This document shows, piece after piece, positions 3,230 through 40,598 of a stretch of DNA of 40,844 nucleotides (position 1 is its first letter; every line of letters begins with the position of its first letter). Made by a program: the position numbers and the translations under genes. Origin of the DNA: Loigolactobacillus jiayinensis (GTDB lineage Bacteria; Bacillota; Bacilli; Lactobacillales; Lactobacillaceae); NCBI RefSeq assembly GCF_003946445.1, contig NZ_RHOF01000036.1, forward strand, positions 1-40,844, read 5' to 3'. Below the pieces are notes generated by a model. That model was not told where the DNA came from. It saw only the letters and a program-made list of their open reading frames with translations, and searched no databases.

Positions 3230-4564
3230 ATGTTATTGATTGGCAATGGGAACCTAATTACGCGGCAGCAGGAGAACGATTTTATCAAAGACGGGTGTGT
3301 GGCCATTGATGGCCAACTCATTAAAGAGGTTGGGACGACAGCAAGCTTAAAAGCTAAGTACCCAGAGGCAGAATTCATCGATGCTAAAGGCGGTTTGATC
3401 ATGCCTGGGCTAGTCAATATGCACAATCATATTTATAGCACTTTTGCTCGGGGCCTCAGCATTAATGGTTATCATCCAAAAGATTTTATGGATATTTTGG
3501 AAGGACAATGGTTCCGCTTAGATCGTGAACTGGATAACAAAGCCACATATGCTAGTGGTAAGGTAGCCTACTTAGATAGCATTAAAAATGGGGTAACGAC
3601 CATGTTTGATCATCATGCTAGTTATGGTGAGATCGATGGCAGTTTAGGTGAACTGTCTCGTGCCGCTGATGAACTTGGTATGCGTACATGCTTATGCTAC
3701 GAAGTTTCTGATCGCAACGGGGAAGCCCAAATGAAGGCAGCTGTTGCAGAGAATGTTTCTTTTATCAACGCCGTTAAGAAGCGTGATAACGATATGCAAC
3801 AAGCAATGATGGGCTTACACGCCGCATTTACGCTATCAGATCCAACTTTGGAATATGTGAAAGCACAGACACCAGCCGGTACTGGCTTCCATATTCATAT
3901 CGCAGAAGGCTTAGCTGACGTGCAGGATTCATTAGCTAAATATAATACGCCAATCGTTAATCGTTTGCTTAATATGGGTATTTTAGGTAAAAAAACGATG
4001 GCCGGACATTGTATTCATATCGGACCACATGAAATGGAGATTTTACGTGATACTGATACGATGGTGGTCACTAACCCTGAATCAAATATGGGTAATGCCG
4101 TTGGTACGCCAGCAGCTCTGAAGATGTTCAATGATTATGGCATTTTGATTGGTATGGGAACCGACGGCTACACTAATGATTTGTTGGAATCATATAAGTT
4201 TGGCAATTTGATTCACAAACATCATTTAGCAGATCCAAATGCCGGCTGGACGGAAATTCCGGCAATGATTTTTGGTAATAATCCCAAGATGGCGAATCGC
4301 TTATTCGATACAAAACTGGGTGTGCTTGAATCGGGTGCGGCAGCTGACGTCATTGTCGTTGATTACCAAGCACCAACGCCAATTACTGCAGCTAATTACA
4401 ATAGTCATATTTTGTTCGGCGTTAACGGTCGAATGGTCAATGATACTATCATTAATGGTCAAGTACGGATGCGCAATCGTGAAGTTGTTGGGGTTGATGA
4501 AGCTAAAATTTGGGCTGATGCGCAAGCGCAAGCTCAACTTCTGTGGCAACGGATCAACGGATAG
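3230..4564 (+). CDS. ssnA: SsnA, amidohydrolase of the selenium/purine catabolic cluster
   Basis: 444 aa cytosolic amidohydrolase of the SsnA subfamily (metal-dependent TIM-barrel deaminase/hydrolase). Metal ligands are visible as the HNH pair near residues 65-67 (MPGLVNMHNH), HIHIAEG, GHCIHIG and GTDGYTND. SsnA is consistently encoded with ygfK and Se-dependent molybdenum hydroxylases and is required, in published work on gut anaerobes, for anaerobic urate breakdown; its exact substrate there is a ring or ring-opened imidazole/purine intermediate and cannot be fixed from sequence. The ATG at 3230 follows AGGAGG with 8-base spacing; a longer upstream frame is not needed. It is the first gene of a nine-gene operon and is separated from ygfK by only 12 bases. 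The leader contains a cre-like site. Confidence 0.93.
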   Translation: MLLIGNGNLITRQQENDFIKDGCVAIDGQLIKEVGTTASLKAKYPEAEFIDAKGGLIMPGLVNMHNHIYSTFARGLSINGYHPKDFMDILEGQWFRLDRELDNKATYASGKVAYLDSIKNGVTTMFDHHASYGEIDGSLGELSRAADELGMRTCLCYEVSDRNGEAQMKAAVAENVSFINAVKKRDNDMQQAMMGLHAAFTLSDPTLEYVKAQTPAGTGFHIHIAEGLADVQDSLAKYNTPIVNRLLNMGILGKKTMAGHCIHIGPHEMEILRDTDTMVVTNPESNMGNAVGTPAALKMFNDYGILIGMGTDGYTNDLLESYKFGNLIHKHHLADPNAGWTEIPAMIFGNNPKMANRLFDTKLGVLESGAAADVIVVDYQAPTPITAANYNSHILFGVNGRMVNDTIINGQVRMRNREVVGVDEAKIWADAQAQAQLLWQRING

Positions 4565-4576
4565 GAGGTCTTTATA

Positions 4577-7500
4577 ATGAGTGATATTATGCGTCCCATT
4601 TCAATCGAAGCTTTATTGAATTGGATTTTAGAAGAATTTAAACGCAGCGGCACAATTTTCGGTGTGCGCCGCTTATATAAAGCTGATCCGAATAAAACAT
4701 TATCCTTATTCGGTGAGCAAATGGAAACACCAGTTGGGCCCGCTGCTGGACCACATACCCAATTAGCACAAAATATTATTGCTTCCTATCTGACTGGTTC
4801 ACGGTTCTTCGAATTAAAAACAGTACAAACTATCGATGGCGAAGATTTGCCAGTAGCTAAGCCATGTATTAGTGCACGCGATGAAGGCTATAACGTTGAA
4901 TGGTCAACGGAATTACGAGTACCAGATGCATACCAAGAATACGTTAAAGCTTGGTTCGTACTGAAACTATTAAGTCGTGAATTTGATCTTGGTAGTCCGG
5001 ATGGCTTTATTTTTAATATGAGTGTTGGTTACGATCTGAAAGGTATTAAAACACCAAAGATCCAAGCTTATATTGACCAGATGCAAGATGCTTCACAAAC
5101 GCCAATTTGGGCAGAATGTTTAGCCACTGCTAAGGAAATGTTGCCACGGTTCAAGCGGATCGATAGTGATTATCTAGCCAATATTGATCCCCATGTGTCA
5201 CGTTCAATTACTTTATCGACCTTACATGGCTGTCCACCAGCCGAAATTGAACGGATTGCCAATCATTTATTAACTGAAAAGCATTTAAATACGTTTATCA
5301 AATGTAATCCAACCTTATTAGGTTTTGATTACGCACGGCAAACAATGAATGAATTAGGTTTTGACTATATGGAATTTGACGATCATCACTTTGTTGATGA
5401 TCTGCAATTTGAAGATGCGGTACCAATGATTACACGGTTACGCGCAGAGGCAGCAACACAACGACTAAGCTTTGGCGTGAAGATCACTAACACCTTCCCC
5501 GTTGATATTGCGCAAAATGAATTACCTGGCGAAGAAATGTATATGTCTGGGCGGTCACTTTTTCCACTCAGTGTGGCAGTGGCTAAGAAATTATCTGATG
5601 CCTTTCACGGTGAATTACAAATTTCATATTCTGGTGGCGCAGATATTTTCAATATTAAGGATTTGTTTGAAGCTGGGATCTGGCCAATCACCGTTGCCAC
5701 AACGTTACTAAAACCAGGTAGCTATCAGCGCATTAGTCAAATTGCTAATGTATTGACTAGCCTATCATATCCAACACGTGTCCAACTTGATTTGCCTAAG
5801 CTTGATCAGCTAGTCACAAAAGCAAAGCATCAAGCTTTATATCAAAAATCAATTAAGTTGCCAATTTCACCAAAAATTGAAGAAAAATTACCATTGTTGG
5901 ATTGTTACACTGCACCTTGTCGTGGTACTGGTGGTTGTCCAATTGATCAGGATGTACCGGCGTATCTGCGGTATGTCAGTGAAGGCAAGTACTTGGATGC
6001 GTTAAAGGTTATTGTTGACCGTAATCCGTTACCTTTTATTACTGGTACGATTTGTGCTCATCCTTGTCAGACCAAGTGTACGCGCCAGTTCTACGAAGGT
6101 TCAATTGATATTCGTGGCGTCAAATTAGATGCTGCAGAACATGCTTATGATGAATTAATGGCAACGATGAAGAAACCAGAAAAGAAGCAAGATGCGGTTA
6201 AAACTGCCGTTGTTGGTGGTGGCCCAGCTGGCTTATCCGCTGGCTACCTATTAGCACGTGAGGGTATGCCGGTTACCATCTTTGAAAAAGATGAACAAAT
6301 GGGTGGTGTGTGTAGCCAGATCGTTCCTGAATTCCGAATCTCTATGGCCAGTGTTCAAAAAGATATTGATTTAACTAAATTTATGGGCGCTGAATTTAAA
6401 AACGGTCAAGCTGCGCCAAGCTTAGACGAACTCCATGCACAAGGCTTTACTAATGTAATCTATGCAATGGGTGCTTGGCATCATCGTAACTTGAAGTTAG
6501 CCAAGGGCAACGCAATCAACTCATTAGAATTCTTAAAAGCGACACGTCAAGATAAGATGGAACATAACCCATATGGCGAGCATATTGTCGTTGTTGGTGG
6601 TGGTAACACAGCTATGGATTGTGTTCGTGTTGCTAGTCGGTTACCAGGTGTTAAGAAAGCATCATTAGTTTATCGGCGGAATAAGCGCAATATGCCAGCA
6701 GATGAAGAAGAACTTTACTTGGCTTTAGATGATGGTGTTGAATTCTTAGAACTATTATCACCAACTTCATTGGAAGATAATCAATTAACCTGTGAAGTAA
6801 TGGAATTAGGTGAGCGCGATGCTTCTGGTCGGCGCAAACCAATGCCAACTGGTCGTTTCACGACGGTTCCAGCTGACACCGTTGTTTCTGCAGTTGGTGA
6901 AACAATCGATACACATTATTATCAACAAGTCGGTATCGAAACTGATGCCCGTGGGTTAGTTCTAAGTGAGCCAACAACTTTAGAAACTAATTTAAAAAAC
7001 GTTTATGTTATCGGTGATGGTAATCGTGGCCCCGCAACAATTGTTGAAGCAATTGCTGATGCGACTAAGGCTGCTAAGGATATCTGTGAGATCCACAATG
7101 AACGTTCCGAACAGACTAATTTGAACGTTGACCGTGCTGTTCCACGGAGCAAACGTGGCATTATGGTAACGCCTGAGAATGGTATTAGTCAATCCGCTCG
7201 TTGCCTTGAATGCTCAACTATTTGTGAATCATGTGTCGATGTTTGTCCTAACCGCGCTAATATCGTAGTTAATGTCAATGGTGATCCACAAATCATGCAT
7301 ATTGATCGGATGTGTAATGAATGTGGTAATTGTGAGACTTTCTGCCCATATTCAAGCGCACCATATAAGGATAAATTTACCTTATTCAATAGTGAACCTG
7401 ATTTTTACAATAGTACTAACCAAGGCTTTTACGTTGTTGATGCAGCCGCTAAAGAATGTTTAATTCGTGTTGGTGACATTGTTGAAACAATTAACTTGAA

Positions 7501-7585
7501 TGAGACTAATATGGATATTGCAAATGGTTTATTAGATATGATGGAAACAGTTATTGATGACTATAGCTACTGCTTAGCCGACTAG
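4577..7585 (+). CDS. ygfK: YgfK, multidomain iron-sulfur flavoprotein of urate catabolism
   Basis: 1002 aa, close to the E. coli YgfK length. The N-terminal about 420 residues form a dihydroorotate-dehydrogenase-like flavin barrel (TPVGPAAGPHTQ, STLHGCPPAEIE). Next comes a GltD-like module: a Cys-rich segment from about residue 442 (CYTAPCRGTGGCP, CAHPCQTKCTR), an FAD dinucleotide fold (VVGGGPAGLSAG, about 543) and an NAD(P) fold (VVGGGNTAMDCVR, about 672). Two ferredoxin-type clusters close the protein (CLECSTICESCVDVCP near 875; CNECGNCETFCP near 913). The 'selenate reductase' name in databases is historical. The architecture is that of a reductase passing electrons from NAD(P)H or a low-potential carrier through Fe-S centres to a flavin that reduces a pyrimidine/purine-like ring. 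Good AGGAGG site; second gene of the operon. Confidence 0.93.
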   Translation: MSDIMRPISIEALLNWILEEFKRSGTIFGVRRLYKADPNKTLSLFGEQMETPVGPAAGPHTQLAQNIIASYLTGSRFFELKTVQTIDGEDLPVAKPCISARDEGYNVEWSTELRVPDAYQEYVKAWFVLKLLSREFDLGSPDGFIFNMSVGYDLKGIKTPKIQAYIDQMQDASQTPIWAECLATAKEMLPRFKRIDSDYLANIDPHVSRSITLSTLHGCPPAEIERIANHLLTEKHLNTFIKCNPTLLGFDYARQTMNELGFDYMEFDDHHFVDDLQFEDAVPMITRLRAEAATQRLSFGVKITNTFPVDIAQNELPGEEMYMSGRSLFPLSVAVAKKLSDAFHGELQISYSGGADIFNIKDLFEAGIWPITVATTLLKPGSYQRISQIANVLTSLSYPTRVQLDLPKLDQLVTKAKHQALYQKSIKLPISPKIEEKLPLLDCYTAPCRGTGGCPIDQDVPAYLRYVSEGKYLDALKVIVDRNPLPFITGTICAHPCQTKCTRQFYEGSIDIRGVKLDAAEHAYDELMATMKKPEKKQDAVKTAVVGGGPAGLSAGYLLAREGMPVTIFEKDEQMGGVCSQIVPEFRISMASVQKDIDLTKFMGAEFKNGQAAPSLDELHAQGFTNVIYAMGAWHHRNLKLAKGNAINSLEFLKATRQDKMEHNPYGEHIVVVGGGNTAMDCVRVASRLPGVKKASLVYRRNKRNMPADEEELYLALDDGVEFLELLSPTSLEDNQLTCEVMELGERDASGRRKPMPTGRFTTVPADTVVSAVGETIDTHYYQQVGIETDARGLVLSEPTTLETNLKNVYVIGDGNRGPATIVEAIADATKAAKDICEIHNERSEQTNLNVDRAVPRSKRGIMVTPENGISQSARCLECSTICESCVDVCPNRANIVVNVNGDPQIMHIDRMCNECGNCETFCPYSSAPYKDKFTLFNSEPDFYNSTNQGFYVVDAAAKECLIRVGDIVETINLNETNMDIANGLLDMMETVIDDYSYCLAD

Positions 7586-7599: not shown

Positions 7600-8988
7600 G
7601 TGTCAATTGTAATTAAAGGTGCGACCGTTGTTTCAACACATGGTCAACGTCAATTAGATGTCAGGATTGTAGACGAAAAGGTGACTGAATTAGGTGTGAA
7701 TTTAGCGACTACAGCCGATACCGTGGTCGATGCCACTGGTTGTTATCTATTTCCGGGTTTTATTGATGCACATACGCATATGGAATTAAATAATGGACCT
7801 GGTACGGCTAGCACGGCAGATAATTTCACAACCGGCAGTTTGGCAGCGGTTGCTAAGGGTACCACTTCGGTGCTTGACATGGCAACGCCAGATCGTGGTC
7901 ATAGTTTACAAGACTGTTTGACGACTTGGAATAGTTTAGCAGCAGGGAAAAGTTCTTGTGACTACAGCTATCACATGTCAATAATTGAATGGAACCAGCA
8001 ATTGGCAGCCGAAGTTCCCAAGATGGCGGCACAAGGCATTACGTCGTTTAAGATGTACATGGCATATGATAATTTACGAACGAGCGATGCTGAGATTTAT
8101 GCAGCAATGTGTGAGATCAAGAAAGTTCATGGCATGTTAGGTATTCATTGTGAGAATGGTGATTTAGTTAATACTTTACAGACCGAATATTTAGCTAAAG
8201 GGTTAACAGCACCTAAATATCATCCGATGACTAGACCTAATATGGTGGAAGCTGAAGCAATTAATCGGTATTTAACAATTGCTGCTTTAGTTGGCTTGCC
8301 AGTTAACATTGTTCATTTAAGCACTCGCGAATCTTTGGCAGTCGTTCGTGCTGCACGAGCACGGGGCCAACAAGTCTATGTTGAAACTTGTCCACAATAT
8401 CTATTGTTGGACGACCATTATTATGATTTACCTGACTTTGAAGGAGCTAAATACATTTGCTCACCACCATTACGTAGTACAGCAGATGAAGCAGCTTTAT
8501 GGCAGGCACTAGAGCAAGGTGAAATCAATACTATTTCGACTGATCATTGTGATTTTAATTTTCATGATCAAAAATTTATTGGTAAGGACGATTTCACTAA
8601 AATTCCTGGTGGGATGCCTGGTGTTGAAACACGACCAGAATTAATTTATACCGCTGGTGTGGCAACTGGGAAAATTAGTTTGGAACAATTTGTTGGTTTG
8701 TTGTCTGAAAATATTGCTCGCCAATTTGGTATGTATCCGCAAAAAGGCGTTATCCAAATTGGCAGTGATGCTGACTTAGTTATCTGGGATCCACAACAAC
8801 AAGGTGTAATCTCAGCAGCGACACAACTACAAAATGTTGACTACACCGCTTACGAAGGCTTTAAAACACAAGGTGCAGCGCGCGCGGTTTATCTACGTGG
8901 TCAGCAAGCTGCAGCTAATGGCAAGGTTTTGGCGGGGCAACAAGGAAAATTTGTTTTCCGTCATGGTAGTGACTATAACTTAAAATAA
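7600..8988 (+). CDS. hyuA: Dihydropyrimidinase/D-hydantoinase family cyclic amidohydrolase
   Basis: 462 aa, GTG start preceded by GGAGGGG. Motifs of the cyclic amidohydrolase family are in order: DAHTHME (two metal His, near residue 58), the carboxylated-lysine segment SFKMYMAYDN, GIHCENGD, NIVHLST and the Asp-bearing STDHCDFN. Family members hydrolyse cyclic ureides (hydantoin, dihydropyrimidine) to N-carbamoyl amino acids. In this setting it most likely opens a five-membered ring left from urate to give a ureido-amino acid for YgeW/YgeY; that substrate assignment is inference. It sits between ygfK (14-base gap) and ygeX (20-base gap) in the same operon. The symbol follows the name used for the equivalent gene in urate clusters. 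Confidence 0.9.
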   Translation: MSIVIKGATVVSTHGQRQLDVRIVDEKVTELGVNLATTADTVVDATGCYLFPGFIDAHTHMELNNGPGTASTADNFTTGSLAAVAKGTTSVLDMATPDRGHSLQDCLTTWNSLAAGKSSCDYSYHMSIIEWNQQLAAEVPKMAAQGITSFKMYMAYDNLRTSDAEIYAAMCEIKKVHGMLGIHCENGDLVNTLQTEYLAKGLTAPKYHPMTRPNMVEAEAINRYLTIAALVGLPVNIVHLSTRESLAVVRAARARGQQVYVETCPQYLLLDDHYYDLPDFEGAKYICSPPLRSTADEAALWQALEQGEINTISTDHCDFNFHDQKFIGKDDFTKIPGGMPGVETRPELIYTAGVATGKISLEQFVGLLSENIARQFGMYPQKGVIQIGSDADLVIWDPQQQGVISAATQLQNVDYTAYEGFKTQGAARAVYLRGQQAAANGKVLAGQQGKFVFRHGSDYNLK

Positions 8989-9008: not shown

Positions 9009-10205
9009 TTGGCAGACAAAATTAAATGGATCAAAAACGAAATGCCTAAAACAAATGATCCGCATTTACCGTTAATGAACCAAGCAGCAGTGGAGAAAGC
9101 ACAAGCGTTCCACAAGAGTTTTCCACAATATACGGAAACACCATTAGCAAATTTAAAAGAAATGGCTAATTATCTAGGCCTAGAAAAGTTCTTTGTTAAA
9201 GATGAATCTTATCGCTTTGGTTTGAATGCATTTAAGGTCTTAGGCGGTTCATATGCGATGGCCAATTATATTGCTAAAAAAGTGGGTAAAGATATCTCTG
9301 AAATCACTTACGATGTAATGATCTCACCGAAATTGAAAAAAGAATTAGGTCAGGCGACTTTCTACACTGCAACTGATGGTAATCATGGTCGTGGCGTCGC
9401 TTGGGCAGCTAATAAATTGGGACAACGGGCAGTTGTTTTAATGCCTAAAGGCTCAACTAAAGCTCGTTTTGACAATATTCGTAAAGAAGGCGCCGAAGTA
9501 ACTATTGAAGACGTCAACTATGACGAATGTGTCCGCAAAGCGAATGCTTTAGCAGAACAAACTGAAAACGGTGTTATGGTGCAAGATACTGCTTGGGATG
9601 GTTACGAAGAAATTCCAACTTGGATCATGCAAGGCTACGGCACAATGGCCTTAGAAGCAGCTAAACAAATGAAGGCTGCTGGTGTTGAGCGCCCAACACA
9701 TGTCTTCATTCAAGCTGGTGTTGGTAGTTTGGCTGGGGCTGTGATTGGCTTTTTCGCCAATCTATTCCCAGAAAACCCACCAATTATGACGGTCATGGAA
9801 GCACAAGCTGCTGATTGTTTGTATAAATCTGCAGCTGCTAAAGATGGCAAGATTCGTTTTGCTACTGGCGATTTAAATACAATGATGGCCGGTTTAGCTT
9901 GTGGCGAACCGAATACAATTTCCTTTGATATCTTGAAGAATCATGTTGCTTATTTTGCTTCATGTCCTGATTGGGTATCGGCTAAAGGGATGCGCATGTT
10001 AGGTGCACCAATCAAAGGCGATCCGCAGGTCACTTCTGGTGAATCTGGGGCTGTCGGTATGGGCTTTATTGCTACGGCAATGCAAGATCCAGAATACGCC
10101 GACATGAAAGCGGCACTGCAGCTTGACGAAAATTCTAAGGTGATTATGTTCTCAACTGAAGGGGATACTGATCCAGAAAACTATAAGAAAATCATGTGGC
10201 AGTAA
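9009..10205 (+). CDS. ygeX: Diaminopropionate ammonia-lyase YgeX
   Basis: 398 aa PLP enzyme that splits 2,3-diaminopropionate into pyruvate and two ammonia via 2-aminoacrylate. The PLP lysine is Lys76 in FGLNAFKVLGGSYAM, and the cofactor phosphate/substrate loop TATDGNHGRGVAW is intact, as is the glycine-rich QAGVGSLAGAV. The start is TTG at 9009 with GAGGGG at proper spacing and no better ATG near the family N-terminus. Length matches E. coli YgeX. In the operon it is the step that turns the nitrogen-rich C3 product into central metabolism; ridA downstream and nifJ at 28027 deal with its aminoacrylate and pyruvate products respectively (inference). Confidence 0.95.
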   Translation: MADKIKWIKNEMPKTNDPHLPLMNQAAVEKAQAFHKSFPQYTETPLANLKEMANYLGLEKFFVKDESYRFGLNAFKVLGGSYAMANYIAKKVGKDISEITYDVMISPKLKKELGQATFYTATDGNHGRGVAWAANKLGQRAVVLMPKGSTKARFDNIRKEGAEVTIEDVNYDECVRKANALAEQTENGVMVQDTAWDGYEEIPTWIMQGYGTMALEAAKQMKAAGVERPTHVFIQAGVGSLAGAVIGFFANLFPENPPIMTVMEAQAADCLYKSAAAKDGKIRFATGDLNTMMAGLACGEPNTISFDILKNHVAYFASCPDWVSAKGMRMLGAPIKGDPQVTSGESGAVGMGFIATAMQDPEYADMKAALQLDENSKVIMFSTEGDTDPENYKKIMWQ

Positions 10206-13911: not shown

Positions 13912-13945
13912 AACAAGATTGATTGTAGATGAAGGAGGAATTTCT

Positions 13946-14320: not shown

Positions 14321-14367
14321 GTTAATCAACTGTGTCTGTTCACTGCCTGACGGAAAGGAACGTAATT

Positions 14368-16169: not shown

Positions 16170-16184
16170 AGGGTGGGTTTATTC

Positions 16185-31876: not shown

Positions 31877-34183
31877 ATGGGCACTAATGAAGTTGTTGGA
31901 CATTCTGAGCAACGTTGGGATGCAATTGCTAAAGTAAAAGGCCAAGCTCAATTTACTGGTGATTTTCCGTTTAAGAATTTACTTTATGGGAAGATATTAC
32001 GTTCTACAATTGCGCATGGACGTGTTGAAAGCTACGATATTTCTGAGGCTGAGAAAGTACCTGGTGTCGTTAAGATTTTGCTACCGGAAGATTTACCGCA
32101 GAATAAATATTCTACTGCAGGACATCCATGGACCTTGATTCCGGAGAAGCAAGATATTCGGGATCGTACAATTTTAACACGTGATGTTCGCGTGTATGGT
32201 GATGATATTGGGGCGGTGATTGCTAAGTCTGAGTTAGCGGCAATTAAAGCTTTGGAAAAAATCAAGGTCACTTATAAGGAATATCCAGTTTATATAACGC
32301 CACAGCAAGCGATGGCGGATGATGCACGGCGAATTCATGAAGAACGGGATAATGTATTGGCAAGTAGCAAAGTTGGTTTTGGTGATGTTGATAAAAGTAT
32401 GGCTGAGGCTGATTATATCATTCGGGAAAATTTATCGACTTCAGTGCAACAACATGTTCATATGGAAAATCAGATTGCAGTTGCCTATCAAGATGCTGAT
32501 CAGCGCTGGACCTGTGTTAGTTCGACGCAGATTCCACATATTTGTCGGCGAATCATTGCCCAAGCAGTTGGTGTTTCTTGGTCGAAGATTCGGGTCAAAA
32601 AACCATTTATTGGCGGCGGCTTTGGTAACAAGCAAGATGCCGTGGTAGAACCATTAGTAGTGGCAATGAGTATGGCTTGTAATGGACAGCCAGTACAATT
32701 AGCATTGACGCGTGAAGAGTCGATTGCTTATACTCGAACTCGTCATGCAATCGATTATAATTTTGCGATTGGGGTAAAAAAAGACGGTACGATCACCGCT
32801 ATTGATTGTGATGTTATTTCTAATCAAGGCGGTTACGCTTCCCATGGTCATGCAATTGGTGGTAAGGGTGGCACGTTCATTAATGCAATTTACAAAATGG
32901 ATAGTTTACGCTATACAGCCAAAACAGTTTATACCAACATTGCCACAGCTGGCGCAATGCGGGCGTATGGCATGCCACAAGTTGTTTTTGCTTTAGAGAC
33001 TGTAATGGATGATGCGGCTGATAAAATCGGTATGGATCCAATTGATTTTCGAATGATGAATCGGCGACCAGACGGCTTCTATAACGCAATGAGTAACGTT
33101 AAGCAGATTAACTTTAAAGTTGGTGAATGTTTAGAAAAAGGGCGTAAGGAGTTTGAGTGGGATAAAAAGATGGCAGCAAGTAAGCAATACAAGACCGGTG
33201 TAAAGCGTCGTGGCTTAGGGGTTGCTGCCTTTTCCTTTGGTACCGCGGTTTATCCGTTTGGCTTAGAGGTTGCCGGCGCGCGCTTGATTTTAATGCCTGA
33301 TGGTTGTTTCAAGCTAATGTTAGGTTCGACTGAAATTGGACAAGGTGCTGATACTGCACTTAGCCAGATGGCTGCTGAAGCTATTGGTGTACCGTTTAAG
33401 AACATTATTCGTGATTCATTTACTGATACAGATATTGATCCGTATGATACTGGAGCGTACGCATCCCGGCAAAGTTATGTTACTGGTTTTGCTGTCAAAG
33501 AGGCAGCAGAAAAAATTAAGGCTAAAATTTTGACGCGCGCCGCGAAAATGTATGATGTGCGTACTGAATATATTGATATTATTGACGGGAATATTATTTA
33601 TATGCCTGATGGCGAACGCTTGGCCACCTTAGAAGATATTGCGATGTCCTCATACTTTGATATGAAAGATGGCAAAACAATTACTGCTTATTCATCGGTG
33701 AATATTCATCAAACCACCTATGCCTCTGGTTGCACCTTAGCGGAAGTCGAAGTTGATATGGAGACAGGCCGTGTTAAGTTACTTAGTATCATGAACGTCC
33801 ATGACTCTGGTAAAATTATTAATCCGCTGATTGCGAACGGTCAAGTTGAAGGCGGTATGGCAATGAGTATCGGCTATGGACTAAGTGAAGGTATTCGTTA
33901 CAGCAAGGAAGGACGGCCATTAAATAATAATTTGTTAGATTACAAGTTACCAACAACTATGGATCTGCCTAAATTGGAGCACGCTTTTGTTGAAACTGAT
34001 GATCCGCTGGGGCCTTTTGGTAATAAATCATTAGGTGAAAATCCAACCGTTTCTCCTGCTCCTGCAATTCGTAATGCAGTAAAAAATGCCATTGGTATCG
34101 GTATTAATACTTTGCCGCTATCACCGGAAAATGTTTATGAGCATATACAAGCGCAGCAAAAGGGGGACGTCCAAAATGTTTGA
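31877..34183 (+). CDS. xdhA: Xanthine dehydrogenase molybdenum-binding subunit XdhA
   Basis: 768 aa, similar in length to E. coli XdhA. Molybdopterin-domain motifs: STQIPHICRR, GGGFGNKQD, GAMRAYGMPQ, GSTEIGQGAD and the catalytic glutamate in GNKSLGENPTVSPAPAI. Compared with the fused enzyme at 17304 the cofactor loop has Gln where that one has Glu (GGGFGNKQD versus GGGFGGKED), suggesting a different substrate pocket. It forms a three-subunit enzyme with XdhB (FAD) and XdhC (2Fe-2S), hydroxylating hypoxanthine/xanthine or related purines with NAD. TGGAGGG upstream of ATG 31877. Overlaps xdhB by 8 bases. Confidence 0.93.
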   Translation: MGTNEVVGHSEQRWDAIAKVKGQAQFTGDFPFKNLLYGKILRSTIAHGRVESYDISEAEKVPGVVKILLPEDLPQNKYSTAGHPWTLIPEKQDIRDRTILTRDVRVYGDDIGAVIAKSELAAIKALEKIKVTYKEYPVYITPQQAMADDARRIHEERDNVLASSKVGFGDVDKSMAEADYIIRENLSTSVQQHVHMENQIAVAYQDADQRWTCVSSTQIPHICRRIIAQAVGVSWSKIRVKKPFIGGGFGNKQDAVVEPLVVAMSMACNGQPVQLALTREESIAYTRTRHAIDYNFAIGVKKDGTITAIDCDVISNQGGYASHGHAIGGKGGTFINAIYKMDSLRYTAKTVYTNIATAGAMRAYGMPQVVFALETVMDDAADKIGMDPIDFRMMNRRPDGFYNAMSNVKQINFKVGECLEKGRKEFEWDKKMAASKQYKTGVKRRGLGVAAFSFGTAVYPFGLEVAGARLILMPDGCFKLMLGSTEIGQGADTALSQMAAEAIGVPFKNIIRDSFTDTDIDPYDTGAYASRQSYVTGFAVKEAAEKIKAKILTRAAKMYDVRTEYIDIIDGNIIYMPDGERLATLEDIAMSSYFDMKDGKTITAYSSVNIHQTTYASGCTLAEVEVDMETGRVKLLSIMNVHDSGKIINPLIANGQVEGGMAMSIGYGLSEGIRYSKEGRPLNNNLLDYKLPTTMDLPKLEHAFVETDDPLGPFGNKSLGENPTVSPAPAIRNAVKNAIGIGINTLPLSPENVYEHIQAQQKGDVQNV

Positions 34184-35048
34184 TATTACGGGTTACTATG
34201 AAGCACATAGTTTAGCTAATGTTTTTGAATTACTAAAAGAACAACCAACAGCCAGAATTGTTGCTGGAGGAACCGATGTTTTAGTGAAATCGCGTGCGCG
34301 GGTTACCGGTTTTGTTGAAACGCCATTGATTGGGATTAGCCGAGTTGCAGAAATGAAAGGAGTCATCATGGCCGATGACGGTACTATTAATATCGGCGCG
34401 TTGACAACCTTTGACGAAATTGAGCACAATAAGATCATCAATCAGAATATGCCCCTACTCAGTCAAGCTGTTTCATTAGTTGGGGGCCCACAAACACGGC
34501 GTATGGGCACAATTGGCGGTAATGTCTGCAACGCTGGCCCAGCAGCTGATAGTGCACCAGCACTGTTTACGTACAATGCAGTTTGTGAAATTTGTTCGGC
34601 CACAACGACTAGAGAAGTGCCAATTACCGAATTTTATATTGGTGTTGGTAAAGTCAAACTTCAGCCAGGTGAAGTACTGGTCAAGTTTAAGATTACTAAG
34701 CAAAACTATCAAGGTTATCAGGGCTATTATATTAAGTTTGCGCAGCGTGCAGCGTTAGATATTGCTAATCTAAGTTGTGCAGCGTTAGTTAAGGTAACCG
34801 AAAATAAGATTCAGGATCTCCGCATTTGTTTTGGTGCTGCTGCTGCGACGCCAATTCGTATGCCAGCAGCGGAAGCATATGGTTTAGGCAAGGAAGTCTC
34901 AAATGATACTTTGACTACCATTGGTGATTATTGTCTTCAGGATACAAAAACAATCGCTGATTGGCGGGCTTCTAAAGAATACCGTGATCATTTAGTCACA
35001 GTGTTACCAGTACGGGCACTAGCATTAGCATTAAAGGATGGTGAATAG
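34176..35048 (+). CDS. xdhB: Xanthine dehydrogenase FAD-binding subunit XdhB
   Basis: 290 aa, CO-dehydrogenase/xanthine dehydrogenase FAD-subunit family. FAD contacts are VAGGTDVLVK (about 29-38) and MGTIGGNVCNAGPAADSAPAL (about 110-130). It transfers electrons from the Fe-S subunit to NAD. ATG 34176 follows AGGGGG and overlaps the end of xdhA; an earlier in-frame start lies within xdhA coding sequence and is rejected. Only 3 bases separate it from xdhC. Confidence 0.93.
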   Translation: MFDITGYYEAHSLANVFELLKEQPTARIVAGGTDVLVKSRARVTGFVETPLIGISRVAEMKGVIMADDGTINIGALTTFDEIEHNKIINQNMPLLSQAVSLVGGPQTRRMGTIGGNVCNAGPAADSAPALFTYNAVCEICSATTTREVPITEFYIGVGKVKLQPGEVLVKFKITKQNYQGYQGYYIKFAQRAALDIANLSCAALVKVTENKIQDLRICFGAAAATPIRMPAAEAYGLGKEVSNDTLTTIGDYCLQDTKTIADWRASKEYRDHLVTVLPVRALALALKDGE

Positions 35049-35051: not shown

Positions 35052-35519
35052 ATGATTCAAGAAATAGAGTTCACATTAAATGGTGAAGCAGTGACCTGTG
35101 CTGTTGATGTACGTAAAAGTTTATTGGAAATGTTGCGGGAAGACTTTTCATTAATTGGCATGAAAGAAGGGTGTAGTGTTGGTGAATGTGGTGCTTGTTC
35201 AGTTCTCATTGATGAACAGGCGGTGGATTCTTGTATTTATTTAGCTGTCTGGGTGGACGGTAAAAGTATCACAACGATTGAGGGTATCACGCATACGGAT
35301 GGTTCGTTGGATAACGTTCAACAGGCGTTTATCGATGCTGGGGCAGTGCAATGTGGTTTCTGTATTCCGGGGATGATTATTTCTAGTAGCCAGTTTATCA
35401 AAGAAAATCCCCAACCGTCACGGGATGAAATTAGGCGCGCTTTGTCTGGTAATATGTGTCGTTGTACTGGGTATCAAAAAATCATTGATGCGGTTGAATT
35501 AGCGGTGGAAACAAAATAA
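35052..35519 (+). CDS. xdhC: Xanthine dehydrogenase 2Fe-2S subunit XdhC
   Basis: 155 aa with two [2Fe-2S] motifs: plant-ferredoxin type GCSVGECGACS (about 37-47) with a later Cys in DSCIY, and the helical type QCGFCIPGM with MCRCTGY. This is the small electron-transfer subunit of XdhABC, not the similarly named XdhC/CoxI maturation factor at 16185. AAAGGATGG lies before ATG 35052. Confidence 0.94.
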   Translation: MIQEIEFTLNGEAVTCAVDVRKSLLEMLREDFSLIGMKEGCSVGECGACSVLIDEQAVDSCIYLAVWVDGKSITTIEGITHTDGSLDNVQQAFIDAGAVQCGFCIPGMIISSSQFIKENPQPSRDEIRRALSGNMCRCTGYQKIIDAVELAVETK

Positions 35520-35556
35520 CCAAACTGAGTCTAAATTGACGAAAGTAGATGGGAAA

Positions 35557-36888
35557 ATGGCAAAAAAACCAATATCACAAGTTGATGAGCGGCTACCGTT
35601 GGGTCAAAATTTATCGTTGGGGTTTCAGCACACAGTCATTGCAATAATCGCGGCGATCCCTGTTCCTTTAATTGTTGCGACTAATACAGGTATGTCAATG
35701 GCACAGACACGATTCTTTATTAGTGCCGTTATTTTCACTACCGGTATTTCATCGTTGCTGGCGGCGCTGGATATCATTCCGCGGACTAGCCCCAAAGTAC
35801 CTATGATCATGGGCGCTAGTTTTGCAGTAGTACCGGTGGCGATTGCAACGCTAAAGGATGCAACTTCAATTCCAGTTGGCTTCCAGTTTATGGCTGGGGC
35901 AACTATGCTTTCGGGGTTACTATGTTTTTTAGCCGCACCATTTTGGGCGAAACTACAACGATTTTTTCCGCCAATCGTAGTGGGAACTAACTTGATGGTA
36001 CTAGGAACAGCGTTATTACCTAATACGTATCATTGGATGATGGATAAAAAGGCCTATCATTTAACCGCTAGTGTTGTACCAAAGGCTTTTTATCTGACGT
36101 TGGCTGTCTTTATTTTCCATATTATTATTAGCAAGTATTTAAAAGGTAAATTGGGTAATGTAACAATTCTAATTTCGCTTATTTTTGGGACGATCATTTC
36201 AATTTTTATGGGCATGATGGATTTTTCGTCAGTTAAATCAGCACCGTGGCTGGCAGCTAATATTCCATTCCATTATGGCTTGCCTAAATTTGGCCTTGAG
36301 TCGATCATTACTTTTCTAATTGTTATGGTATTAGGTATGGTGGAAGTATCTGGTACAGCGACAGGAATTCACGATATTGTTCATAAACCGATTGATCGGA
36401 CCCAGTTTGGTAAAATTTTGAAAACGTTGGGGATTGGGACTTTTCTTTCCGGATTATTTAATTCGGTTCAGCCAACTTCATTTGTACCTAGCGTTGGTGT
36501 ACTAGACCTTTCCAAGGTTCATAGTCGCTTTCCTATTGCAACAGCAGGCGGGATGTTGGTTTTGATTGGTTTTATACCAAAATTTTCGGCACTGATTTCA
36601 GTTATTCCTAAGCCTGTTCTAGGGGGGATTGGTTTTGCTATTTTTGGTGTTATTATTGGGAGTGCCGTTGATATTCTTAAGCAAGTTAATTTTAATGGAA
36701 ATCAAAATAAATTAATTATTGGTTTAAGCATGGGCGTTACAATGATTCCAGCTACTTATCCTAATTTTTATGCGCAATTTCCATCATTAATTCAGAATAT
36801 AATGGGTAGTGGTATCTTATCTGGTGCCTTAACTGCCATTTTATTGAATATTTTCTTTAACTTCAAGGATTTGCGACGCGCGGATTAA
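35557..36888 (+). CDS. NCS2/NAT family nucleobase permease with divergent signature
   Basis: 443 aa membrane protein of the nucleobase:cation symporter-2 family: LPLGQNLSLGFQH near the N-terminus, MIMGASFAVVP in the first repeat, and many hydrophobic helices. The NAT signature normally reading (Q/E/P)NxGxxxxT is PSVGVLDLSK here, with Asn to Ser and Thr to Ser changes, so substrate range may differ from the two other permeases in the window. It lies between xdhC and guaD, so guanine, hypoxanthine or another purine is likely. The start is uncertain: ATG 35557 is preferred for its family N-terminus, but the binding site is weak; TTG 35536 is the alternative. Confidence 0.82.
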   Translation: MAKKPISQVDERLPLGQNLSLGFQHTVIAIIAAIPVPLIVATNTGMSMAQTRFFISAVIFTTGISSLLAALDIIPRTSPKVPMIMGASFAVVPVAIATLKDATSIPVGFQFMAGATMLSGLLCFLAAPFWAKLQRFFPPIVVGTNLMVLGTALLPNTYHWMMDKKAYHLTASVVPKAFYLTLAVFIFHIIISKYLKGKLGNVTILISLIFGTIISIFMGMMDFSSVKSAPWLAANIPFHYGLPKFGLESIITFLIVMVLGMVEVSGTATGIHDIVHKPIDRTQFGKILKTLGIGTFLSGLFNSVQPTSFVPSVGVLDLSKVHSRFPIATAGGMLVLIGFIPKFSALISVIPKPVLGGIGFAIFGVIIGSAVDILKQVNFNGNQNKLIIGLSMGVTMIPATYPNFYAQFPSLIQNIMGSGILSGALTAILLNIFFNFKDLRRAD

Positions 36889-36910: not shown

Positions 36911-37381
36911 ATGGCAACAGATTTTATGGAAATTGCAGCAGCAGAAGCGACAGCTAATTTAACAACACAGGATGGCGGCCCGTTTGGTTGTGTGATTGTA
37001 CGGGATGGGGAAATTATTGCGCAAGCACATAATCAGGTCTTGGTTGACCATGATCCAACAGCTCATGGCGAAATTACTTGTATTCGTAAAGCAACGAAAA
37101 AATTAGGTACACATGATTTGAGCGGTTGCGTGTTGTATACATCATGCTATCCTTGTCCGATGTGCTTAGGCGCAATTATCTGGTCGAACATCACAAAAGT
37201 TTATTACGGTAATACAGCTAAAGATGCCGCTGAGATTGGCTTCCGCGATGACTTTATTTACGATTTTATCAAGCAAGGTGGGGCTAATAAAGACGTTCTT
37301 GACTTAGAACAAGAAGAACGAGAAAAAACACTGCCGAGCTTTAATGCTTTTGCCGCTCAACAAGATAAACAATTGTATTAG
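36911..37381 (+). CDS. guaD: Guanine deaminase (cytidine-deaminase fold)
   Basis: 156 aa, the length of Bacillus GuaD and highly similar in layout. Zinc-site motifs are TAHGEIT (His52, Glu54) and PCPMC (Cys82, Cys85), then GAIIWSNITKVYYG and AAEIGFRDDFIYD, a C-terminal pattern typical of GuaD rather than of tRNA adenosine deaminase. It converts guanine to xanthine and ammonia, feeding XdhABC. AGAAAGG is located upstream of ATG 36911; last gene of the xdhABC operon, followed by a terminator. Confidence 0.9.
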   Translation: MATDFMEIAAAEATANLTTQDGGPFGCVIVRDGEIIAQAHNQVLVDHDPTAHGEITCIRKATKKLGTHDLSGCVLYTSCYPCPMCLGAIIWSNITKVYYGNTAKDAAEIGFRDDFIYDFIKQGGANKDVLDLEQEEREKTLPSFNAFAAQQDKQLY

Positions 37382-37626: not shown

Positions 37627-37776
37627 TATTATTTTTAATGCTACTAAAAATAATAATTTTTTGTACGAAAAATATTTTTAACAAGGGAGGGGATATCCCG
37701 GCGTTATGCTCAGTGTGAAAGCAAATATCAGCTGTCTGTCGGTATAGTTCAAGTGCAAAGAAACGGAGGATTTTTC

Positions 37777-39162
37777 ATGAAGACTGTGAAAAATAAGAAT
37801 AACGGTGGCGTGTCGGATGCGGATATGGTTTTCCAATTAGAAGGTCGGCCTAAGTTTTCCATTGCTTTTCCTTTAGGATTACAGCACGTTTTAGCGATGT
37901 TTGCTGGTAATTTGGCACCAATGTTGATTATTGCTGCGGTCGCAAAAGCAACACCAGCTGAAACGATCGTCATGGTGCAGGCTGGTATGCTGATTTCTGG
38001 ATTAACGACATTCGTGCAATTATACCCAATTAAAATTGGCCGTTTCCAAATTGGATCCGGATTACCTATCGTTATGGGGACGAGTTTTGCGTTTGTGCCC
38101 ACTGCATCTGCAGCTGCCGCAATTGGTGGGATTCCAGCAGTGTTAGGTGGCGCCTTAGTTGGTAGTTTATCTGAAGGCTTTATTGGCCTATTTTATAAAT
38201 ACTTAAAACGGTTCTTTACGCCATTAGTGATCGGTAGCACTTTGATTGCAATCGGAATCAATTTATTAGGCGTTGGACGTGACTACTTTGCCGGTGGTGC
38301 TGGTGCTAAGGATTATGGTTCTTGGCAAAACTTAACGATAGCTTTTTCGACATTTCTTTTCGTCATTATTTTGCAACGTTTCGGTAAAGGGGTCATTAAT
38401 ACAGCCGCCTTGTTATTTGGTTTATTATTCGGCTATATTTTGGCATTCTTCTTTGGTAAAGTTGATTTGAGTTCAGTCAGCACTGCTTCGTGGGCGACTA
38501 TTCCACTACCATTACATTTTATGCCAACTTTTGATGCACAAACGATTATCAGCTTTGTGATCATTTATATAACGGTGGCTATGGAAACAATTGGGAACAC
38601 ATCGGGTATTACGATTGCTGCTTTTGATCGTCCCGCCACAGAAAAAGAAACTTCGGGTTCCGTTTTAGCTGATGCAATCGGTTGCGCGGTGGCATCAATT
38701 TTTGGTGCAATGCCAAATACAGCTTTTGGTCAGAACGTTGGGATCGTTTCAATGACTAAAGTTGTTAATAAGTGGTGTATCGCTTTAGGTGCCGGCGTTT
38801 TAGTGATATGTGGCTTCTTACCTAAATTAGGGTCAATTTTTGCTTCAATTCCTAATCCTGTCTTGGGTGGTGCGCTGATCTCAGTTTTTGCTATGATCAC
38901 ATTAAACGGAATCAAAATGCTTGCCCAAGCAGGCTTTAGTGGGCGTAATGTCACAGTATTAGGCATTACTTTTGCTTTAGGTATTGGGTTTGCCGGACAC
39001 GCTGATGCAATTGCTGGAATGCCAACTTGGTTGAAATTTATTTTTGAAGATAGTATTGCGGCAACAACATTGGTTGGAATCATCACTAATCTAGTTTTTC
39101 CGAATCCTAAAAAACATGAAGCTAGTACAACTGACAAAGTAGCAGGGACAACAGTTAAATAA
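37777..39162 (+). CDS. NCS2/NAT family xanthine/uracil-type permease
   Basis: 461 aa, multi-helix membrane transporter. Family motifs: FPLGLQHVLAMFAGN, GSGLPIVMGTSFAFVP and the NAT signature QNVGIVSMTK, intact and of the xanthine/urate type. It is the closest in signature to the permease at 14368. Paired with an 8-oxoguanine deaminase gene, so 8-oxoguanine, xanthine or urate are the likely cargoes; this is inference. GGAGGA precedes ATG 37777; an upstream start would include the binding site. Confidence 0.9.
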   Translation: MKTVKNKNNGGVSDADMVFQLEGRPKFSIAFPLGLQHVLAMFAGNLAPMLIIAAVAKATPAETIVMVQAGMLISGLTTFVQLYPIKIGRFQIGSGLPIVMGTSFAFVPTASAAAAIGGIPAVLGGALVGSLSEGFIGLFYKYLKRFFTPLVIGSTLIAIGINLLGVGRDYFAGGAGAKDYGSWQNLTIAFSTFLFVIILQRFGKGVINTAALLFGLLFGYILAFFFGKVDLSSVSTASWATIPLPLHFMPTFDAQTIISFVIIYITVAMETIGNTSGITIAAFDRPATEKETSGSVLADAIGCAVASIFGAMPNTAFGQNVGIVSMTKVVNKWCIALGAGVLVICGFLPKLGSIFASIPNPVLGGALISVFAMITLNGIKMLAQAGFSGRNVTVLGITFALGIGFAGHADAIAGMPTWLKFIFEDSIAATTLVGIITNLVFPNPKKHEASTTDKVAGTTVK

Positions 39163-39236
39163 TAGTTTAACGGTTAATTTACCTATTTAGACAAATTTCA
39201 CTGTGTTTCATTGTTTCTTTAGAGGAGGCTGTGATC

Positions 39237-40598
39237 TTGACTAGGTTACTGATTAAAAACGCCCAAACGATTGTGACTTGTAACAAACATGATGAGGTAT
39301 TAGAACATGTTAACTTATTGATTGAAAATGGTGTGATCACGTATATGGGTAAGAAAACCCCCAGTGCTGATCAGCAAATTGATGCTAGCCATCATATTGT
39401 TTATCCAGGATTGATCAATACGCACCATCACTTGTATCAAACATTTACGCGTAATCTACCAGCTGTTCAAAATATGGAATTATTTGATTGGTTGAACGCA
39501 TTGTATAAGATTTGGGCTAATTTAGATCAAAAGGTTGTTTATTACAGTTCAATAACTGGCTTAGGGGAACTATTGAAAAGTGGGTGTACTACAGCTTTTG
39601 ATCATCACTATGTTTTTCCACAAGGTGAGGAAACTGGGTTGATGGAGGCTCAGTTTCAAGCGGCTTCGGAGCTGGGCATTCGGTTGCATGCTTCACGAGG
39701 GAGTATGAGCTTAAGTCAAAAGGATGGTGGATTACCACCAGATAGTGTTGTTCAAAATGTTGATACGATTTTAAAAGATTCAGAACGAATTGTTGCTAAG
39801 TTTCACGATCCTAAGCCGTTTTCTATGCGTCAAGTTGTACTCGCGCCTTGCTCACCATTTAGTGTGACCAGTGAGTTGATGAAGGAAACAGCTAAATTAG
39901 CACGGCATTTAGGTGTGCGCTTGCATACACATTTGGCTGAGACTAAGGATGAAGAGCAATTCGTGTTAAAGAATTTTGGTATGCGACCATTGGCTTATAT
40001 GGAATCTTTGGGCTGGACAGGTAATGACGTTTGGTACGCGCATGGCATTCATTTTAACCATGAAGAATTGGAATTTTTGGCAAAAACGCAAACTGGGGTT
40101 GCCCATTGCCCAATTTCAAATATGAAGCTCTCTTCGGGAATTTGCCAAGTAGCAGAAATGCTAAAACTAGGCGTTCCAGTCGGATTAGGTGTTGATGGCA
40201 GTGCAAGTAATGACGCCTCTAATTTACTAGAAGATTTACGAGTTGGCTTTTTGTTGCAGCGTTTGAATTCAAGCAATCAAGCACCAACCGGTTATGATTT
40301 CTTAAAAATGGCTACTAACGGTAGTGCTAAGTTACTTGGTCGTGATGATATTGGTTCATTAGCAGTTGGCAAGGCCGGTGATTTATTCATGCTTGATACT
40401 CGTGATCTATCATTAGTGGGGACTTTACAAGATCCCAAAGCAGTACTGGGCACAGTCGGCTTTTCTGGGGCGGTAGCTTATACCGTTGTTAACGGTCAGA
40501 TTGTGGTTAAGCAAGGTAAATTGGTTAATTTAGATGAAGAAAAGTTTGTAGCCGATGCTAATCAATTGCAACGACAATTCATTGCACGTAGTGAGTGA
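39237..40598 (+). CDS. 8-oxoguanine deaminase (AtzB/TrzN-like amidohydrolase)
   Basis: 453 aa zinc amidohydrolase. Metal and family motifs: GLINTHHHLYQTFTRNLPAV, CTTAFDHHYVFP, LHTHLAET, AHGIHF and GVDGSASNDASN. The block 'NTHHHLYQT..RNLPAVQ..ELFDWL' is typical of 8-oxoguanine deaminases, which release ammonia to give urate. Thus a damaged purine enters the urate pathway directly. Start TTG 39237 lies 8 bases after AGGAGG; GTG at 39231 is too close to that site. Second gene of its operon; a terminator follows at 40765. A related cytosine/guanine or s-triazine deaminase function cannot be fully excluded. Confidence 0.85.
   Translation: MTRLLIKNAQTIVTCNKHDEVLEHVNLLIENGVITYMGKKTPSADQQIDASHHIVYPGLINTHHHLYQTFTRNLPAVQNMELFDWLNALYKIWANLDQKVVYYSSITGLGELLKSGCTTAFDHHYVFPQGEETGLMEAQFQAASELGIRLHASRGSMSLSQKDGGLPPDSVVQNVDTILKDSERIVAKFHDPKPFSMRQVVLAPCSPFSVTSELMKETAKLARHLGVRLHTHLAETKDEEQFVLKNFGMRPLAYMESLGWTGNDVWYAHGIHFNHEELEFLAKTQTGVAHCPISNMKLSSGICQVAEMLKLGVPVGLGVDGSASNDASNLLEDLRVGFLLQRLNSSNQAPTGYDFLKMATNGSAKLLGRDDIGSLAVGKAGDLFMLDTRDLSLVGTLQDPKAVLGTVGFSGAVAYTVVNGQIVVKQGKLVNLDEEKFVADANQLQRQFIARSE

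Follow-up and report, generated by a model that had tools for sequence, protein, structure and literature searches.

A purine degradation island in Loigolactobacillus jiayinensis and the predicted coupling of its selenium-dependent molybdenum hydroxylase to flavodoxin and pyruvate:ferredoxin oxidoreductase

Gene content of the purine island

The complete contig C58 of Loigolactobacillus jiayinensis (NZ_RHOF01000036.1; 40844 bases, the whole of which is hereafter termed the window; host genome 3.04 Mb in 127 contigs) carries a 37.4-kb island (3230-40598) of 29 genes, every one of them on the plus strand. Searches with family models show that it encodes the reductive urate pathway along with purine import, purine deamination, molybdenum (Mo) and selenium cofactor genes, and two Mo-hydroxylases. 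We concentrate here on one of these, the single-chain enzyme SeXDH, and on the redox block at the center of the island (25203-31560), which comprises the genes for flavodoxin, NfnA, NfnB and pyruvate:ferredoxin oxidoreductase (PFOR). None of the 29 frames is interrupted, and matches cover the family models almost end to end, with the exception of a ModE-like domain. A preliminary description, made from the DNA sequence alone, had placed import, deaminase, ring-opening, xanthine dehydrogenase (XDH) and cofactor genes in one contiguous run in a lactobacillus-like host; this is borne out, as the genes named are open plus-strand frames each matching its family model, and the host belongs to the genus Loigolactobacillus. 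That inventory passed over RidA, the ModE-like domain, flavodoxin, NfnA, NfnB, PFOR and the regulator at the border; the Mo maturation genes were possibly subsumed under its "cofactor genes".

The ring-opening set begins with ssnA, coding for a dihydro-yanthine ring-opening amidohydrolase (3230-4564; TIGR03314, 669.9 bits, cut-off 455.5), and ygfK, coding for a yanthine reductase dependent on reduced nicotinamide adenine dinucleotide (phosphate) (NAD(P)H; 4577-7585; TIGR03315, 1512.9 bits, cut-off 835.3). These are followed by genes for the D-hydantoinase HyuA (7600-8988; TIGR02033, 619.6 bits), the pyruvate-forming 2,3-diaminopropionate ammonia-lyase YgeX (9009-10205; TIGR03528, 636.6 bits), the M20-type ureido hydrolase YgeY (10306-11622; TIGR03526, 678.6 bits), the knotted carbamoyltransferase YgeW (11743-12942; TIGR03316, 720.6 bits) and carbamate kinase (12973-13911; TIGR00746, 381.6 bits), which makes adenosine triphosphate (ATP) from carbamoyl phosphate. 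These seven proteins are linked and score above the curated NCBIfam cut-offs. The earlier assignment of the pathway stands. A RidA-family enamine/imine deaminase (13919-14320; TIGR00004, 152.6 bits) and the first of three NCS2 purine permeases (14332-15747; TIGR00801, 319.1 bits) complete this part of the island.

The Mo and selenium genes comprise those for an XdhC-type Mo-hydroxylase maturation factor (16173-17180; passing TIGR02964 with 163.7 bits against 161.6 and missing NF045664 with 280 against 350), SeXDH itself (17304-19880; TIGR03311, 1470.7 bits), the Mo cofactor cytidylyltransferase MocA/YgfJ (19889-20458; TIGR03310, 154.9 bits, below its cut-off of 186.45), the selenocysteine lyase SclA of the EF2568 family (20455-21630; NF040779, 642 bits), the selenophosphate synthetase SelD (21615-22637; TIGR00476, 372.2 bits), the sulfurtransferase-like selenium protein YedF (22647-23234; TIGR03527, 203.2 bits), and the cofactor biosynthesis proteins YqeC (23495-24241; TIGR03172, 167.9 bits) and YqeB (24208-25023; TIGR03309, 340.4 bits), the former a selenium cofactor factor and the latter one for selenium-dependent Mo cofactor. 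The redox block consists of flavodoxin (25203-25661; NF005587, 159.9 bits), NfnA (25723-26553; 4ylf chain A, E 5e-99), NfnB (26555-27964; 4ylf chain B, E 1e-182) and PFOR (27997-31560; TIGR02176, 1873.2 bits; 6cin, 1438.8 bits). Downstream lie the Mo, flavin adenine dinucleotide (FAD) and [2Fe-2S] subunits of a three-subunit XDH, respectively XdhA (31877-34183; NF043082, 1144.7 bits), XdhB (34176-35048, with a longer frame from 34086; NF043083, 388 bits) and XdhC (35052-35519; NF043084, 238.6 bits). The second permease (35536-36888) falls below the NCS2 superfamily cut-off passed by the other two (TIGR00801, 257.7 against 291.8 bits) but passes NF037981 (82.4 bits, above 40). It is followed by guaD (36911-37381), which codes for a protein of the cytidine-deaminase fold (PF00383) that reaches no equivalog model and whose best solved relatives are the guanine deaminases 1tiy and 1wkq (E 2e-37 for the latter), the third permease (37753-39162; TIGR00801, 304.5 bits) and the urate-forming 8-oxoguanine deaminase (39231-40598; NF006055, 600.3 bits; 7ww2, E 3e-128). 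SeXDH, SelD, YedF, YqeC, YqeB, SclA, XdhA, XdhB, XdhC and the 8-oxoguanine deaminase are likewise above their NCBIfam cut-offs.

On its left the island is preceded by genes for an ABC permease and an M20 peptidase and, at the border itself, for a YheO-type regulator; to the right the window ends with the contig. Intergenic gaps are mostly short, given gene starts of our choosing, with longer ones before yqeC (260 bases), flavodoxin (179), xdhA (316) and the third permease (371). No transfer RNA gene was found in the window. A strongly foreign base composition was considered and rejected, the G+C content being 40.7% in the island against 41.5% in the 5' flank and 41.2-45.3% at four loci of the same genome (L001, L002, L132 and L133, of which the last two overlap; a small sample).

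Linkage of SeXDH to flavodoxin and PFOR

We compared the neighborhoods of SeXDH at the best 80 loci among 355 relatives in our genome collection, 23 from Lactobacillales and 57 from elsewhere, by tblastn with the window proteins (E up to 1e-6); 32 of the 57 have at least 5 kb of sequence downstream and 25 have less (G, C and L numbers denote genomes, contigs and loci). Flavodoxin is encoded near SeXDH at all 23 Lactobacillales loci, as opposed to none of the 57 others and none of the 32 with at least 5 kb downstream. PFOR shows the same pattern (22/23 versus 0/57); at the one exception, L061, the sequence may stop short of it. NfnA and NfnB were each recovered at 17 of the 23 loci; at the other 57 there is no NfnA and no NfnB above 300 bits, with one weak NfnB match at L075. 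Both proteins are homologous to the solved Nfn (4ylf) over almost their full length and hence constitute an NfnAB transhydrogenase by homology. Seven of the 23 loci have neither selD nor yqeB in the vicinity; there mocA, flavodoxin, in some cases NfnAB, and PFOR still follow SeXDH. Separately, L. bifermentans (L145 18274-19333, G191:C94) displays two tandem flavodoxin copies before PFOR near a contig end, which could be real or due to assembly.

Across genomes, PFOR is above cut-off in only ten of the 397 genomes of the family, namely all six with YgfK and four of the 391 others (G147, G170, G240 and G362); the naive Fisher p is 4e-11, with six carriers in just two genera making for a small effective sample. 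For further counts we define carriers as 20 genomes, these six lactobacilli and 14 Enterococcaceae with a SeXDH locus (14 of 18 such loci, L054, L055, L057 and L066 being left out); among the 14, YgfK lies within the fetched flank of L051, L062, L063, L065 and L098. Together with six relatives devoid of YgfK they form a set of 26 genomes. XdhA is above cut-off in 11 of the 26, all of them carriers, and the XDH-type FAD domain PF00941, scored in the 20 carriers, occurs in precisely the same 11. Hence, in the remaining nine carriers SeXDH, with no XDH-type FAD subunit found, seems to need a soluble electron carrier. Among solved structures, SeXDH is closest to the FAD-less aldehyde oxidoreductase of Desulfovibrio (1sij), for which flavodoxin is described as a recognized partner (PMC10223205), and no frame in the window other than YgfK and PFOR has the ferredoxin motif CxxCxxCxxxC. 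Given the invariant linkage, the nine carriers with no FAD subunit, the FAD-less relative that works with flavodoxin and the lack of another ferredoxin motif, flavodoxin is predicted as the likeliest partner of SeXDH.

The two molybdenum hydroxylases

SeXDH combines [2Fe-2S] and Mo domains in one chain with no FAD domain, and is 27% identical to E. coli XdhD; XdhA of the window is 46% identical to E. coli XdhA and 31% to XdhD. A urate dehydroxylase of the E. coli type, that is XdhD-YgfM with Glu606 and a FAD subunit, is not encoded here, and the island is a variant in this respect. As only SeXDH is found in nine of the 20 carriers, including L. rennini, whose cluster runs from ssnA to PFOR, we consider it likelier, going by gene content, that SeXDH is the urate dehydroxylase and XdhABC an added xanthine-oxidizing arm. 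SeXDH is probably reversible and might also act as a xanthine dehydrogenase, a role that in L. rennini would be left to it as well.

Selenium, molybdenum and formate dehydrogenase in the host and other carriers

The combination of SelD, YqeB, YqeC and a TIGR03311 XDH is the hallmark of the selenium-dependent Mo-hydroxylase trait, the third use of selenium, and all four are present in the island. SelD is above cut-off in 21 of the 26 genomes, comprising all 20 carriers and one of the six non-carriers (G068, which also has SelA). The host genome yields no match to SelA or MnmH, which makes its SelD an orphan, as in E. faecalis and unlike L. rennini (G033) and L. bifermentans (G191), where SelA is present; accordingly the host SelD is likely, judging from this gene complement, to serve the Mo enzyme. 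A selenium-free SeXDH was considered for the enterococcal loci where selD and yqeB are not nearby (L051, L058, L059, L062, L063, L097 and L098) and rejected, since all seven genomes have SelD above cut-off. In Vagococcus acidifermentans (L065; G408:C39:119740-120639) the SelD match contains one in-frame TGA, possibly a selenocysteine codon, and in the draft of E. crotali (L057) ygeW, mocA, selD and yedF are each matched in two pieces, which looks like the result of sequencing indels.

The alpha subunit of formate dehydrogenase is above cut-off in 18 of the 26 genomes, including 17 of the 20 carriers and one of the six non-carriers (G123, which bears a relic of the island; naive Fisher p 0.0045). 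In two genomes of the Agrilactobacillus group, G081 and G108, one copy sits beside ssnA, between that gene and guaD; in G081 the annotation gives FdhA, accompanied by subunits resembling NuoF and NuoE and by a MoeA-like gene. Contig C36 of the host has the same operon, with small subunits below the family cut-offs, along with a MobA-like gene and a transporter of the formate/nitrite family. On one contig of Enterococcus sp. CSURQ0835 (the L051 genome; G397:C10:54945-56957) formate dehydrogenase alpha, XdhA and SeXDH lie within about 38 kb, again linking formate dehydrogenase to purine genes. The host moaA adjoins a NarK-type gene; moaA, moeA-like and mobA-like genes were seen outside the island, and the genome has four acetate kinase matches. 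The island had been called complete; this fits as regards the pathway but not its dependencies, as Mo cofactor genes, formate dehydrogenase and acetate kinase are encoded elsewhere in the genome.

Phyletic distribution and evolution

Full-length YgfK is above cut-off in six of the 397 family genomes searched: the host, L. rennini DSM 20253, L. bifermentans DSM 20003, Agrilactobacillus yilanensis, A. composti DSM 18527 and the metagenome-assembled genome Lactobacillus sp. UW_MP_AGRLAC1_1. Some weaker match is obtained in 396 of the 397, as stretches of YgfK are similar to common flavoproteins. In a midpoint-rooted tree of SeXDH (34 rows: the window, 22 of the 23 Lactobacillales loci, with L097 omitted for its split match, and 11 of the 57 others) the six lactobacillus sequences come together (100/98) inside a larger clade that also takes in Enterococcaceae rows (99/99). 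L. bifermentans sides with Agrilactobacillus (100/98) instead of its congeners, a placement that suggests, but falls short of proving, horizontal transfer. The SeXDH of L. rennini is 86% identical to that of the window, and L. rennini shares the gene order from ssnA to PFOR, minus sclA, selD and yedF.

Of five congeners without YgfK, we read two for relics at the border of the island (G123 and G170) and one around PFOR (G147), leaving out G068 and G097. Both G123 and G170 hold relics beside the same regulator gene. In G123 an xdhA without its beginning remains, together with xdhB, xdhC, guaD and two permease genes; the scar carries a transposase that was recognized by eye as IS30-type. That of G170 (L143 76-7866, G170:C48) retains the regulator, a fragment of yqeB and intact flavodoxin, NfnB and PFOR on an 8063-base contig that ends after PFOR, on which neither NfnA nor purine genes were found. 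The losses are probably independent, given that the regulators of G123 and G170 are 95% and 88% identical to that of the host. In the closed genome of G123 the interval between the M20 gene and the truncated xdhA holds transposase-like genes, of which two look IS30-type by eye and one abuts xdhA (L148 9703-14198; G123:C1:901702-906197). Outside the Lactobacillales, a Lachnospiraceae metagenome-assembled genome (L068), in which flavodoxin and PFOR were not found, has a closely similar ssnA-yqeB cluster (39-78% identity) and a YheO-type regulator 64% identical to that of the window.

Electron balance and proposed pathway

The pathway chemistry has been worked out in E. coli and clostridia (PMC12507026, PMC12990295). 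Counted in available electrons, xanthine and guanine equal acetate (8), urate and 8-oxoguanine have two fewer and hypoxanthine has two more. To reach pyruvate requires two extra electrons from xanthine and four from urate; to reach lactate, four and six. With PFOR present the xanthine balance closes: xanthine + 6 H2O -> acetate + 3 CO2 + 4 NH3 is balanced in its elements and takes no outside electrons. For urate, balance is attained with formate: urate + formate + 5 H2O -> acetate + 4 CO2 + 4 NH3, a need for formate that matches the reports on strain UAD-1 (PMC4036019; PMC12507026). The preliminary description had envisaged an energy-yielding fermentation of urate and xanthine and listed lactate among the compounds to follow. 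Fermentation to acetate balances for xanthine and guanine, and falls two electrons short for urate on its own; lactate is ruled out as an energy-yielding product of either purine, at a cost of six electrons per urate or four per xanthine.

In the proposed scheme, guanine and 8-oxoguanine would be deaminated to xanthine and urate respectively, and XdhABC, via its FAD subunit and presumably with NAD as acceptor, would oxidize xanthine to urate. The FAD-less SeXDH would draw electrons from flavodoxin to convert urate to yanthine, whose aromatic ring YgfK would then break with NAD(P)H, followed by opening of both rings by SsnA and HyuA. The ureido groups would be removed by YgeW with carbamate kinase, and by YgeY, leaving YgeX to yield pyruvate. 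PFOR could then convert pyruvate to acetyl-coenzyme A and re-reduce flavodoxin, with NfnAB exchanging electrons with NAD(P)H and ATP arising from acetate kinase and carbamate kinase. The extra two electrons for urate would most simply come from formate by way of the host formate dehydrogenase. We posit with moderate confidence that the island is a Lactobacillales-type, self-balancing version of the reductive purine pathway, in which PFOR reduces flavodoxin and flavodoxin passes the electrons to SeXDH for the reduction of urate. It is from gene identities, order, linkage, co-occurrence and stoichiometry that we infer flavodoxin as donor, the division of labor between the two Mo enzymes and a host living on the island. 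A broader version of this proposal, which we offer tentatively, is that FAD-less SeXDH enzymes of the Lactobacillales reduce urate with electrons drawn by PFOR from the end product of the pathway itself and passed on by a dedicated flavodoxin, and that in concert with XdhABC they turn xanthine into its isomer yanthine without net oxidation or reduction, allowing closed growth from purine to acetate and making flavodoxin the missing donor of the FAD-less urate reductases.

Several observations weigh against this proposal. On the enzymatic side, Glu606 of E. coli XdhD, the residue to which urate reduction has been ascribed in a proposal, sits in an insertion that is missing from both Mo enzymes of the window, EF2570 of E. 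faecalis is reported as a selenium-dependent xanthine dehydrogenase acting in the oxidative direction (PMC11448449), and XdhD-YgfM of E. coli uses NADH, so that the chemistry does not demand flavodoxin (PMC12507026). On the genomic side, formate dehydrogenase is missing in three of the 20 carriers, and NfnA/NfnB were not found at six of the 23 loci; the 14 Enterococcaceae genomes are drafts of unstated completeness, in which some missing FAD subunits could be gaps; and the co-occurrence counts ignore shared ancestry, with the lactobacillus carriers confined to two genera. PFOR without YgfK in G147, G240 and G362 indicates other uses for the redox block, and its retention in part by G170 shows that it can outlive the purine genes, contrary to an exclusive coupling. 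Further, the literature searched yielded no activity, expression or growth data for the carrier lactobacilli.

Alternative interpretations

The island might instead serve for scavenging nitrogen (and carbon), or for purine detoxification, during the fermentation of sugars, rather than for growth on purines as an energy source. We regard this as a realistic possibility, in keeping with the four or five ammonia released per purine; against it stand the ATP routes through carbamate kinase, PFOR and acetate kinase, and the self-balance of xanthine and guanine. A somewhat unlikely alternative makes the redox block a module for pyruvate fermentation in general which happens to share the operon, SeXDH being fed by ferredoxin or another carrier. 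The flavodoxin-NfnB-PFOR remnant in G170 and the four genomes with PFOR but no YgfK would be explained thereby; nevertheless, flavodoxin accompanies SeXDH at every Lactobacillales locus, including the seven where the selenium genes are not nearby, PFOR is otherwise almost absent from the family, and the window offers no additional ferredoxin motif.

It is improbable that the roles of the two Mo enzymes are reversed, with SeXDH hydroxylating only xanthine (and hypoxanthine) and XdhABC acting as the urate dehydroxylase. The report on EF2570 and the lack of the Glu606 region in SeXDH are compatible with such a reversal, but XdhA likewise lacks this region and, as its identities reveal, is closer to E. 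coli XdhA than to XdhD. Moreover, XdhABC was not found in nine of the carriers. Three of the nine could be viewed as far as the ring-opening genes: in L. rennini the cluster runs from ssnA to PFOR, and at L063 and L065 the flanking sequence includes the genes from ygfK to carbamate kinase. Finally, the relics in two congeners, the transposase at one scar and the SeXDH tree (L. bifermentans with Agrilactobacillus, the lactobacillus clade among Enterococcaceae) might suggest that the island was acquired horizontally and is now silent or in decay. This is highly implausible in view of the 29 open frames, nearly full-length in their family matches except for the ModE-like domain, the unexceptional G+C content and the conservation of SeXDH and gene order with L. 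rennini.

Relationship to known systems

This kind of island is already known: the same core is tabulated for E. faecalis V583 (EF2559-EF2582; Haft and Self 2008, PMC2276186; Zhang et al. 2008, PMC2432076), a species that is not among our 80 SeXDH loci. According to the published tables, on which the comparison is based, the shared genes encode PFOR (EF2559), a GltD-like protein (EF2560), a dihydroorotate dehydrogenase electron-transfer subunit (EF2561) and flavodoxin (EF2562), which lie beside the selenium genes (PMC2432076), as well as YqeB, YqeC, a YedF/SirA-like protein, SelD, a class V aminotransferase, a MobA-like protein, XDH, XdhC, a permease, carbamate kinase, YgeW, YgeY, YgeX, hydantoinase, YgfK and SsnA. 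Relative to this cluster, XdhABC, two further NCS2 permeases, guaD and the 8-oxoguanine deaminase are extra in the window.

The island shares with the E. coli urate pathway the YgfK, SsnA, HyuA, YgeW, YgeY, YgeX and carbamate kinase (yqeA) families, with XdhABC, guanine deaminase and purine permeases nearby. It differs in having the FAD-less SeXDH in place of XdhD-YgfM, in the linkage of SelD and of the flavodoxin-PFOR block, and in having no sigma-54 regulator among its 29 genes. The preliminary statement that the E. coli equivalents are scattered over several units proved wrong: in MG1655 xdhABC-ygeVWXY-hyuA-yqeABC-mocA-ygfK-ssnA-ygfM-xdhD-xanQ-guaD-ghxQ-ygfST-uacT are contiguous (3000345-3032815, both strands). 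The E. coli PFOR gene presumably lies outside this region. The selD gene is listed elsewhere, at b1764 (PMC2276186). In Clostridioides difficile, which has XdhD without YgfM, the Mo enzyme is also FAD-less and is proposed to use a low-potential carrier (PMC12507026); relative to it the window has YgfK instead of UacX, and YgeW with carbamate kinase instead of UacY. The aldehyde oxidoreductase of Desulfovibrio gigas is, like SeXDH, one polypeptide that contains Mo and two [2Fe-2S] domains but no FAD, and it has a flavodoxin partner, as proposed here for SeXDH; it differs in its aldehyde substrate, SeXDH being predicted to act reductively on urate with a selenium-bearing cofactor.

Among the papers listed in searches pairing either genus, Loigolactobacillus or Agrilactobacillus, with purine terms, none reports this pathway in Lactobacillaceae, which is weak evidence of absence as subscription papers were mostly beyond reach; the Loigolactobacillus and xanthine literature found deals with apple pomace and craft beer. 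Two accounts of urate-lowering lactobacilli rest, in the parts consulted, on other genes or products, one reporting allantoin and urea (PMC8007157) and the other annotating hpxO, hiuH and allB (PMC12732358). The physiological donor of the FAD-less urate-reducing Mo enzyme was named an open point in 2025 (PMC12990295), and the words "flavodoxin", "PFOR" and "Lactobac" are absent from the main text of PMC12507026. Our findings turn this question into a specific test of flavodoxin, and extend anaerobic selenium-dependent purine breakdown, a trait known in enterococci and gut bacteria and rare among lactobacilli, to Loigolactobacillus and Agrilactobacillus in the Lactobacillaceae, relatives of food organisms. 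They also predict that xanthine and guanine would be fermentable alone, and that urate and 8-oxoguanine would require formate or another reductant. If the broader proposal is true, closed fermentation of purines to acetate would support the growth of a lactic acid bacterium, with flavodoxin as the so far missing physiological donor of the FAD-less urate reductases.

Candidate regulators

Control by a known riboswitch family was rejected, no Rfam family reaching its gathering score within the window. The YheO-type gene at the left border (2299-3090, minus strand), which codes for PAS_6 and HTH_22 domains (a PAS and a helix-turn-helix domain), is the probable regulator of the island: the islands of G033, G191, G050, G081 and G108 are each bordered on one side by a homolog, and so are the relics in G123 and G170. 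Within the island, a ModE-like DNA-binding domain, stand-alone in a 114-residue frame (15825-16169; TIGR00637, E 5e-19, 68.3 bits, below the cut-off of 98.5), precedes the Mo enzyme genes and is a possible local regulator.

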